Shown in pieces: positions 15,420 to 19,747 of a stretch of 35,531 nucleotides of DNA (its first letter is position 1; the number at the start of each line of letters is the position of its first letter). The stretch is taken from the NCBI GenBank assembly GCA_035700025.1, contig DASSOY010000021.1:1-35531 (forward strand), read 5' to 3'. Made by a program: the position numbers and the translations under genes. The notes under the pieces were generated by a model that saw only the letters and a program-made list of their open reading frames with translations, did not search any database and had not been told where the DNA came from. Source of the DNA: Bacillales bacterium (GTDB lineage Bacteria; Bacillota; Bacilli; Bacillales; DASSOY01).

Positions 15420-17312
15420 TCACGCCTGCTGTTGTTTTTTGCCGGGTACAAGACTCCGAATGTTCTTGCATATGCCTTCAACGGTCAACCCGACTTCATT
15501 TAACAAATCGCCGACGCTGCCGTGCTCGATATAACGGTCCGGCAAGCCCATCCGCCGGATTTGTGACGTATCGTACCCTTGTTCATTGAAATATTCCAGC
15601 ACCGCCGTACCGAATCCGCCTTTCAAGACGCCTTCTTCAACCGTAAGGATCGGCATGTGCTCATCCGCCAAACCGGACAACATCGCTTCATCCAACGGTT
15701 TCAGAAAACGCGCATTGATGATTTTTACGGAACAGCCTTCCAATGCGAGTGTTTCCGCTGCTTTTTCGGCGGTCTGGATCATCGGTCCGAACGAAAGAAT
15801 CGCGGCATCGTATCCTTCGCGCACCACTTCCCAAGTGCCGATCGGAATTTCATGAAAATGCTCGTCCAATTCAACACCGATCCCGTTTCCGCGCGGCAGT
15901 CGTACAGCGATCGGTCCTTCATCGTAATGCACAGCAGTCGAAATCAAATGCTGCAGTTCGTTTTCGTCTTTCCCCATCGCAATTACCATGTTCGGCAAGG
16001 AACGCATGAAGGCGATGTCGAACACGCCATGATGCGTCTCCCCATCTGCCCCAACAAGACCGGACCGATCGACGGCAAAAACGACGTTCAGCTTTTGCCG
16101 GCATACGTCGTGGACAAGCTGATCGTACCCGCGTTGCAAAAACGTCGAATAAATGGATAATACCGGTTTCATCTTTTCGGCGGCCAGACCTCCGGCCATC
16201 GTCGTAGCATGTTGTTCGGCAATCCCGACATCGAAAAGGCGGTTGGGGAATTCCTTGCGAAAAGCTTCCAATTTCGACCCTACCGTCATCGCCGGCGTGA
16301 GAACGACAATGCGCTCGTCTTTCCTCGCCAGCTTGCGCAAAGCTTCGCTGACGACTTGGCTGTAGGCCGGCGGCGCCCCGACCGGCTTGATCAAATCCCC
16401 GGATTCGATTTTGTACGGTCCCGTGCCGTGCCATGTTCCAACGGTGTCGGACTCAGCAGGTTTGTACCCTTTCCCTTTTTGCGTCAAAACGTGCACGAGT
16501 TTCGGTCCGTGCATTTTCTTCGCATATTTCAGGTTTTCCGTTAAATCGGTGATGCTGTGCCCATTCACAGGACCGAGATACGTATAGCCGAGTTCTTCGA
16601 AAAACATTCCGGTCACAAACAAGTATTTCAACGAATCTTTCAACCGTTCAGCCGTGGATGCGAGACGGCCCCCGACCGGAACTTTTTTCAAAAACGTTTC
16701 AAATTCGTCTTTGGCGCGATTGTATTTCCCTGCCGTACGCAAACGGCCGAGTATGTTGTGAAGCGCCCCGACATTTGGAGCGATCGACATTTCATTATCG
16801 TTGAGAACGACGATTAAATCTTTCTGCTCATGCCCAATGTGATTCAATGCTTCAAGAGCCATACCGCCGGTCAATGCTCCGTCGCCGATGATCGCGATGA
16901 CCGATTCGTTGCCGCCTTTTAAATCGCGGGCAGCCGCAATCCCCATCGCTGCCGAGAGCGATGTTGAGCTATGACCCGTTTCCCAATGATCATGTTCGCT
17001 TTCGGACCGTTTCGGAAATCCAGCCAGCCCTTTGTATTGCCGAAGCGAATCGAACTTGTCTGCACGGCCGGTCAAAATTTTGTGCACATATGACTGGTGT
17101 CCGACATCCCAAATGAATTTGTCTTTCGGGCTTTCGAACAATTTGTGCAAGACGAGCGTCAGTTCGACGACGCCAAGGTTCGGCCCGAGATGTCCGCCGG
17201 TGCGCGACAGTTTTCGGATGAGAAATTCCCGGATTTCCGCTGCCAATTGTTCAAGATCTTCGCTTGAATAAGATTTCATAAACGACGGATCATGAATGCT
17301 TTCAAGATTCAT
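15420..17312 (-). CDS. dxs: 1-deoxy-D-xylulose-5-phosphate synthase
   Basis: A 630-residue thiamine-diphosphate enzyme. It condenses pyruvate with glyceraldehyde 3-phosphate, the first step of the MEP isoprenoid pathway. Visible motifs are [18 protein letters not shown] near 35-52, GDGALTGG at 143-150 with [10 protein letters not shown] (TPP/Mg binding), [10 protein letters not shown], and [18 protein letters not shown] in the pyrimidine domain. The start [12 protein letters not shown] at 17312 aligns with B. subtilis Dxs; AAGGAAG lies about 13 bases upstream, inside the end of oapA. It lies 10 bases downstream of oapA and directly upstream of tlyA, so the three are probably one transcript. 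Confidence 0.97.
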
Positions 17313-17322
17313 TTGGATGATG

Positions 17323-17931
17323 TCACTTCCTTTTAACGCCAGATTGGGTCGCATTGAACTTCTTTTGCGTCAATGAAAGCTTCAGCTTGCTTTCGATGAA
17401 GTAAAACAGCTTGCCAACCTGGAAGATGATTTGTGTCGCGTATCGTATGGCAAACGTTTTGCCAAACGCTTTACCTCCGACCGTCAACGCCGCGACGACG
17501 CTCGTAAATATGACGGAGACGACATATTGAAACGTGGAATCGCTTCCATATTCCAATTGTAAAGTGAGTTGCAAAACTACAGCCGCGACTGCGGTTCCGC
17601 TGACGATACCGGAAATGTCTCCAACGACGTCATTACAAAAGTTCGCCATCCGATCGGCATTTCTAGCGATGTAAATCGACTGTTTCGAACCGTGAATTCG
17701 TTTTGAAGCCATCGCGTGAAATGGTTTTTCGTCCACCGCAGTGGCGGCGACGCCGATGATGTCAAAAATGATCCCGATGGCAACGATGAACAGCACGATT
17801 AACGTGCCGGCGCCCCATGTGACGCCATCGAGGACAAACGTAGATACGACTGAAAAAATAGCCGCTAACACGAGCGTGATAACGGCAATCCCAGAACTCC
17901 ATTTTATGGATTTTTTAAACATTAATTTCAT
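17323..17931 (-). CDS. oapA: OapA, OLE RNA-associated membrane protein (BH2780-like)
   Basis: A 202-residue membrane protein from ATG 17931 (AGGAG about 13 bases upstream; ATG 17922 is an alternative). The longer open frame to 18108 would run back into the RNA gene and is not protein-like there. Four likely membrane segments lie at about 13-33, 40-65, 102-124 and 134-152. The second runs into [20 protein letters not shown] and a basic region ([19 protein letters not shown]), resembling the DUF21/CNNM-type fold found in magnesium transporters. The C-terminus is strongly basic ([16 protein letters not shown]), suited to RNA contact. In B. halodurans the homologue (BH2780) binds OLE RNA and places it at the membrane. 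Identification rests on sequence character and the exact ispA - RNA - oapA - dxs context. Confidence 0.88.
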
Positions 17932-17949
17932 ACTTAGCTTCAATCTCCT

Positions 17950-18560
17950 AACAACGTTAACACAATAGGGAAGTGGTCGTTCGAAGAGTAAACATTGCAG
18001 CTTAGGTCCAGTAGGTTTTCCCGAAAGGATACCGAATCGTTGCCGCTCCGGCGGTTTCCCTTTAAACCCTTTCCGGCCCCGTCGCCGGCAGCCGAACTGG
18101 ATCGCCACTCAGTCTGCACTATAATCCCCTTCAAACGTCATCGGAACAGTCTAGGAGTTTTCCTCAACAGCCCTTCCATTTCCTAGCCTCTTTTGCAGAA
18201 CGGATTTCATACGGATCAGAAAACACTATCCGCCGGCCAAGCGGACTTTTTCCACAATGCCCGTAATCCCCTCCGACTCCACTCAAGGCAGGCTACGCTG
18301 AACGTGAATTCCCAGAACTCACGATTCAGGGTTATCTCCCAACATACGCATGCACGTATGAATGGGGCCTCCGCGGACTGCAGGGTCATCGCCCACATGC
18401 CATTGTGGATCGCCCTACGTCCTTAACTCCCAGCATTGACCCAAGGCTGGGCGCCTCAAGCCGACACCAGAAGCTTCATCGATGTGCCCTTTGGCGGATT
18501 TTTAGGCCCGCCCTCAGAAATGGGAAGCCGACTAGAATACTGCACCACTTGCGTATTGCA
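17950..18560 (-). ncRNA. ole: OLE RNA (Ornate, Large, Extremophilic)
   Basis: About 690 bases between ispA and oapA hold no credible gene but a strong promoter and dense secondary structure. Reading the minus strand, visible hairpins include CCCAGC/GCTGGG (18429-18451), CATACG/CGTATG (18343-18360), and a long one pairing CTGAA with TTCAG and CGTGA with TCACG (18298-18329). GGCGG/CCGCC lies near the 5' end and CCGC/GCGG near 18230. The size, the position between ispA and a four-helix membrane protein preceding dxs, and the promoter all match OLE RNA of B. halodurans (about 610 nt). The 5' end is set from the promoter; the 3' end is estimated from the known length. No terminator is visible before oapA, so the RNA may be processed from, or share, the oapA-dxs transcript. 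I have not matched it to a covariance model. Confidence 0.88.
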
Positions 18561-18566
18561 CATCTT

Positions 18567-18595
18567 ATTATACCACGAATAGCAGATTTTCTCAA
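18567..18595 (-). promoter_or_regulatory. Sigma-A promoter of OLE RNA
   Basis: Minus strand -35 TTGAGA (18590-18595), exactly 17 bases, -10 TATAAT (18567-18572). It is the best vegetative promoter in the window and lies 22-51 bases beyond the ispA stop codon. It predicts transcription starting near 18560 and indicates that the RNA is made independently of the upstream xseAB-ispA genes. Confidence 0.88.
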
Positions 18596-18617
18596 CGAGG
18601 TTATTACGTTGCCGCGG

Positions 18618-19499
18618 TCAAACGTCGCGGTTTACGATGTAATCGCTCAACGCCGACAATCGCCGATGATCGACAGCTGCTTCCGACAAATGATGCTTCG
18701 CTTGAATGAAATGTTCTTCGAGTTTCCGTTTCGCGCCGTCGAGCGACAACAGTTGCGGATACGTACTTTTTTGTTTGTTCAAGTCGCTGCCGGCCGTCTT
18801 TCCCATCGTATTCGTATCCCCAATGATGTCGAGAATGTCGTCGCGGATTTGAAAGGCGAGACCGAGATGTTGCGCGAAATTTCGCAATTGGTTTGTTTGA
18901 AATTCATCAGCGTCGGCAAGCAAAGCGCCGGCTTCAATCGAGAACGCCAGCAATTTTCCGGTTTTTCGTAAGTGCACTTGCTCAAGCTCTTCGAAGGTCA
19001 GTTTTTTTCGTTCCGCCTCGAGATCGAAACATTGCCCGCCGACCATTCCTTCCGCCCCTGCCGCACGCGCCATCATCGCGATCAGCTGTGTCTTCTTGGA
19101 TCCGTCAATGTCCGCGTCGCCGATTTCAGCGACCGCTTCGAAACTTAACGTCAACAAAGCGTCCCCGGCGAGAATTGCCGTCGCTTCTCCGTATATTTTA
19201 TGGTTCGTCGGTTTTCCTCTTCTCAAGTCGTCATCGTCCATGGCAGGCAAGTCGTCGTGAATCAAGGAATACGTGTGGATCAATTCAATCGCAGAAGCGA
19301 CTGGAAGTCCCGATTGTGAATTTTTCCCGAAAGCTTCCATCGTGGCTAGCAGCAAGATTGGGCGAATTCGTTTGCCCCCGGCTTGTACCGAGTAATGCAT
19401 CGCTTCTTTTAACCGATCCGCTGTATCCAGCCGATCGATTTGCGCAAAAAGGATTTCGTCAATTCTTTCCTTTTGCCGTCGAAAATAAGCATCGATCAC
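18618..19499 (-). CDS. ispA: Farnesyl (polyprenyl) diphosphate synthase
   Basis: A 293-residue all-alpha trans-prenyltransferase that makes farnesyl diphosphate from IPP and DMAPP. The first aspartate-rich motif [18 protein letters not shown] is at about 81-98 and the second, [10 protein letters not shown], at 219-228. GGKRIRP at 41-47 binds the diphosphate. The start is GTG at 19499, overlapping the xseB stop as GTGA, so translation is coupled. It is followed within about 30 bases by the OLE RNA promoter. Confidence 0.96.
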
Positions 19500-19747
19500 G
19501 TTTTGTCTTCCTCCTGAATGACCAACGTTTCCATTTCACCATCGTCGTTCAAAATTTGATCCATTTGCTCCTCGACTTTCTTTAACTTCGAATGGCACGT
19601 TTTCGATAAATTCATGCCTTTCTGAAACAGCTCAATCGCCTTTTCAAGCGGGACGTCCCCCTCTTCGAGGCGCTCGACGATTTTTTCCATTTGTTCCATC
19701 GCTTCTTCGAAGGACATCTCGCGTGTTTCGTGTTCCGTTTCTTTCAC
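19496..19747 (-). CDS. xseB: Exodeoxyribonuclease VII small subunit
   Basis: An 83-residue small helical subunit of exonuclease VII with the family core [20 protein letters not shown] and [19 protein letters not shown]. The start is GTG at 19747, overlapping the xseA stop as GTGA and preceded by GAGGGGGAG. A longer frame to 20080 lies inside xseA and is rejected. Confidence 0.93.

Follow-up and report, generated by a model that had tools for sequence, protein, structure and literature searches.

OLE is a large bacterial RNA that contributes to stress tolerance in partnership with membrane proteins and RNA-binding proteins. The member from Halalkalibacterium halodurans is already known to have its own promoter (PMC9723947), and according to the literature ole and oapA are almost always found in tandem. 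In P6 of the H. halodurans RNA, the sequence CCUCCU exactly reproduces the anti-Shine-Dalgarno of 16S rRNA, and this match has been proposed to explain the binding of bS21; inversion of the P6 G-C pairs weakens or abolishes this binding, while mutants M1–M3, in which the mimic is changed and pairing is kept, still bind bS21 (PMC12054373). In cryo-EM structures of clostridial OLE, the RNA is a dimer whose contacts lie in L4, L5.1/L6.1 and L9, and P3 has been proposed to cross the membrane beside OapA (PMC12286853, PMC12265935). The window analyzed here is the whole 35,531-nt stretch of DNA from a Bacillales bacterium, for which an OLE RNA gene had been predicted from sequence.

Identity, gene neighborhood and fold

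The original prediction placed the OLE RNA gene at 17950–18595 and proposed a search with the Rfam covariance model as a check. When this search was run with cmscan, the OLE model RF01071 matched 18564–17957 on the minus strand, inside the predicted range, over model positions 1–616 of 616 (507.6 bits against a gathering score of 50, E 3.2e-146), and no other Rfam family reached its threshold in the window. Position, length, own promoter and downstream oapA all fit OLE, and the copy is the only one in the genome. We consider it almost certain that the interval is a typical, apparently intact, full-length copy of OLE RNA, the ole gene of a deep-branching Bacillales species, and thus one more ordinary member of an already well-known RNA family. 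A variant type that has lost P7/P8 was rejected because the match covers every model position. The window copy shares the conserved core with the variant 1 and variant 2 OLE RNAs of the TANB77 and RF39 clades (PMC11332333), but differs from them in being full-length, with P7, P8, P9 and the P13 region. The features of the locus are collected in Table 1.

Table 1. Positions of the ole gene, its neighbors and its putative functional elements in the window.
Feature	Position	Strand	Basis
ispA, farnesyl diphosphate synthase, upstream neighbor	18618..19499	-	NF045485, 415.7 bits
OLE promoter: TTGAGA, 17 nt, TATAAT, extended -10 TGG	18567..18595	-	Best-matching pair likewise positioned in 42 of 44 OLE loci
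OLE RNA gene, full-length type, 608 nt	17957..18564	-	RF01071 full-model match
P4 loop CCUAAAAAUCC, A-rich dimer contact B1 in cryo-EM structures	18496..18506	-	UAAAAAUC core invariant in 36 sequences; role from PMC12286853, PMC12265935
J4a/5 k-turn strand AUCGAUGAAG, predicted OapC site at P5 base	18474..18483	-	Invariant in 36 sequences; function from PMC9723947
P6/P6.1 region (bS21 site in H. halodurans)	18372..18422	-	Conserved G-C pairs kept; CCUCCU replaced by CCUGCA, one inserted base
P9 loop GGCC palindrome, kissing-loop dimer contact B3	18235..18238	-	Sequence positions 327-330, at least 90% conserved; role from PMC12286853
oapA, 202-aa OLE-associated membrane protein A	17323..17931	-	69% identity with the matched part of H. 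halodurans OapA
dxs, downstream neighbor	15420..17354	-	TIGR00204, 898 bits; ORF start overlaps oapA end

Genes in the window follow the order ispA-OLE-oapA-dxs-tlyA-argR-recN, an isoprenoid, repair and translation cluster that contains OLE, and the order xseA-xseB-ispA-OLE-oapA-dxs-tlyA is common to nearly all Bacillales loci examined. Of the 49 oapA loci tested, 48 have OLE immediately upstream, and the membrane-protein gene expected downstream of the window RNA is indeed oapA. The minus-strand ispA gene ends with a stop codon at 18620–18618, and oapA starts at 17931 on the same strand; the true start of dxs is probably a little further in than that of the called ORF. The distance from ispA to OLE is about 870 bases in Bacillus sp. 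FJAT-50079 (locus L021, 2492–3360) versus fewer than 160 in most other Bacillales loci. Five loci from Cerasibacillus, Halolactibacillus and Streptohalobacillus (L026, L030, L032, L034 and L035) lack dxs between oapA and tlyA, so that ole-oapA stays with tlyA without the downstream isoprenoid gene.

The original claim that no plausible gene lies between ispA and oapA agrees with what we find there, namely only short, overlapping and mutually contradictory ORFs, several of them of 60–77 aa. These ORFs, along with an in-frame GTG extension of oapA that reaches 18108, are what could be cited for a protein-coding gene overlooked by annotation, but the ORFs overlap one another in opposing frames and the interval evolves through compensating base changes in stems, and we put the probability of such a gene close to nil. 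It had also been expected that standard gene callers would leave the region blank or fill it with false ORFs. The false-ORF part holds for mechanical calls, which return the short overlapping frames, yet an Rfam scan detects OLE at once.

The description of the stretch as densely structured is justified by the stability of the window RNA relative to shuffled sequences (z -4.7, 20 shuffles) and, more tellingly, by the RF01071 match over its whole length. With about 600 nt and many paired substructures supported by covariation, the RNA is as expected of OLE. On a 36-sequence OLE alignment, 90.2% of cells are paired in the consensus structure and two-sided changes are seen in 90 of 146 pairs; none of 500 shuffles reach the observed values, and pairing falls to 39–47% in a control in which partners are slid by 1–3 columns. 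The consensus OLE fold therefore covaries strongly across the 36 relatives. As this alignment is sequence-based (MAFFT), it undercounts pairs in P7 and P9, stems that vary in length, and their low pair counts (helices 6, 7 and 11), which follow from this variation and from poor alignment, speak neither for nor against those stems.

The window copy resembles the H. halodurans OLE (RF01071; locus L009, 3309–3936) in length class, in its complete consensus fold, in the ispA-ole-oapA-dxs order, in the TTGAG-N17-TATAAT promoter and in OapA, and both hosts have genes for OapB, OapC and bS21. It differs in 21 stem pairs that are changed on both sides in a compensating manner, in a P6 that lacks the exact CCUCCU mimic and has one extra base, and in a short P7. 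The closest OLE in our sample, at 77% identity, is that of another Bacillales genome of the same taxonomic order (G052, locus L099), which has the same TTGAGA-N17-TATAAT promoter, but a different sequence in P6 and P7.

In the window OLE, 146 of the 159 consensus pairs are standard, 7 are non-standard and 6 fall in gaps, and 269 of the 274 alignment columns that are at least 97% conserved in other OLE RNAs are kept. The seven non-standard pairs, the shortened P7 and the five departures at highly conserved columns might be read as signs of a decayed, non-functional ole relic. However, this is extremely improbable in view of the pairs and conserved columns that have been retained, the intact promoter, an intact oapA with its key residues, and the presence of all partner genes.

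A promoter site conserved at OLE loci

The near-consensus promoter that had been reported just past the ispA stop is present as described: TTGAGA at 18595–18590, a 17-nt spacer and TATAAT at 18572–18567 on the minus strand, 22 nt past the stop codon. TGG directly precedes the -10, placing a TG one base ahead of TATAAT, and this is the sole site with 11 of 12 matches in 17200–19600. Among 44 OLE loci with enough upstream sequence, in which the best -35/-10 pair was sought within about 120 nt, the end of the pair falls between -10 and +8 relative to OLE position 1 in 42, compared with 8% when the upstream sequence is shuffled; the OLE promoter is therefore not a chance match.

The promoters of these loci resemble each other in detail. 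The fifth position of the -35 is G (TTGAG), not the C of TTGACA, in 35 of the 42, and TATAAT is the usual -10. A rough pattern search puts TG ahead of the -10 in at least 40 of the 44 loci, a lower bound because this search picks an incorrect hexamer for the window and for two other loci. This conserved departure from consensus, together with the extended -10, may tune or condition the OLE promoter. We found no statement on the conservation of the OLE promoter in the accessible OLE literature.

The interval immediately precedes oapA and is read in the same direction, and we saw no obvious terminator at the OLE 3' end, as would also be the case if it were only a structured leader, that is, a cis-regulatory 5' UTR of the oapA-dxs mRNA from which no separate RNA is made. 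That interpretation is very improbable, however, as the interval matches over its full length a family represented in H. halodurans by a discrete RNA of about 630 nt that has a promoter of its own (PMC9723947), and predicted binding sites for trans-acting partners are conserved. A leader role and a separate-RNA role are in any case mutually compatible.

Constant and variable features of the predicted dimerization and partner-binding sites

Judged by sequence, the loops that make the dimer contacts are all present in the window OLE: L4 (UAAAAAUC), L5.1 (GCCCA), L6.1 (CAAUGGCAUG) and L9 (GGCC). At the k-turn, the window OLE keeps the nucleotides that correspond to C85 and to its partner G144 in H. 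halodurans. In the OapB region, P12.2/P13, which we compared at the level of stem-loops and not of contact residues, the stem-loops are present and covarying (helices 17 and 19).

The P6 region is more variable. The CCUCCU mimic is found in 7 of 36 OLE RNAs and is absent from 29, the window OLE among them, while the P6 G-C pairs are invariant in the 36-sequence alignment. Possession of the mimic thus does not seem to define the OLE class. Given this distribution, and given that mutants M1–M3 still bind bS21, the anti-Shine-Dalgarno mimic looks lineage-specific and the G-C pairs look like the general feature. The absence of a perfect mimic makes binding of bS21 to the window OLE less certain.

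Drawing the promoter and P6 patterns together, we tentatively propose that Bacillales OLE RNAs have one promoter design (TTGAG with its unusual G5, a 17-nt spacer and an extended -10), which would make independent, probably tuned transcription a property of the class in this order, and that the bS21 contact rests on the P6 G-C pairs rather than on a true anti-Shine-Dalgarno mimic, which most members, including the window OLE, lack. We regard the two parts of this proposal, taken jointly, as plausible but falling somewhat short of probable.

Distribution and host

The RNA had been called rare, which does not hold among relatives: with OLE in 125 of the 199 genomes sampled from the order, it is not rare there. 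The host genome (2.84 Mb, 90 contigs, 97.7% complete) is the only member of its family in the sample, and a literature search found no papers on the organism. In a tree of IspA, OapA and Dxs, the host forms a long branch whose sister, of the named relatives sampled, is Fictibacillus gelatini (support 0.999). The window OLE leaves the picture of the class unchanged; what it adds is a long-branch lineage with a compact genome, useful mainly as a further independent case for telling variable features (the P6 mimic and P7) from constant ones (the promoter, k-turn and dimer loops).

Protein partners and probable mode of action

The genes for the protein partners are all found in the host. OapA has the aspartates D101 and D105, corresponding to D100 and D104 of H. 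halodurans, which are altered in the PM1 mutant; both are invariant in 14 sequences. OapB is a KOW protein encoded by a 99-codon frame just upstream of infA, and matches PDB 7k9b, OLE-associated protein B (E 2e-31). OapC/YbxF is encoded between rpoC and rpsL, with a YbxF match at E 1e-24 and Gly15 present, and there is also a bS21 gene.

By analogy with other species, the window RNA likely acts as in H. halodurans, as a dimeric, OapA-tethered membrane ribonucleoprotein for stress and Mg2+ tolerance; its transcription, processing, dimerization, membrane location and role in stress are all extrapolated from those systems. An RNA of about 600 nt would be transcribed from its own extended -10 promoter, which its sequence suggests is strong, and read-through out of the operon upstream would probably contribute as well. 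Judging from its H. halodurans homolog and the cryo-EM structures of clostridial OLE, this RNA would take on the OLE architecture and dimerize through the P4, P5.1/P6.1 and P9 loops. It would then be tethered to the membrane by OapA, the product of the next gene, and would bind OapB, OapC and probably bS21, with the resulting complex expected to support growth under cold, alcohol, Mg2+ and carbon-source stress.

Although OapA is well studied, no Pfam or NCBIfam model matched the window protein at E 0.001, so that profile-based annotation would label it hypothetical, and a sequence search found no solved structure of OapA. A second, divergent OapA (42% identity, aspartates conserved) is encoded in Virgibacillus sp. 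AGTR 9 (locus L056, 4001–4594) with no OLE within 4 kb; the same genome (G199:C161 and C205) also has an ordinary ole-oapA pair elsewhere.
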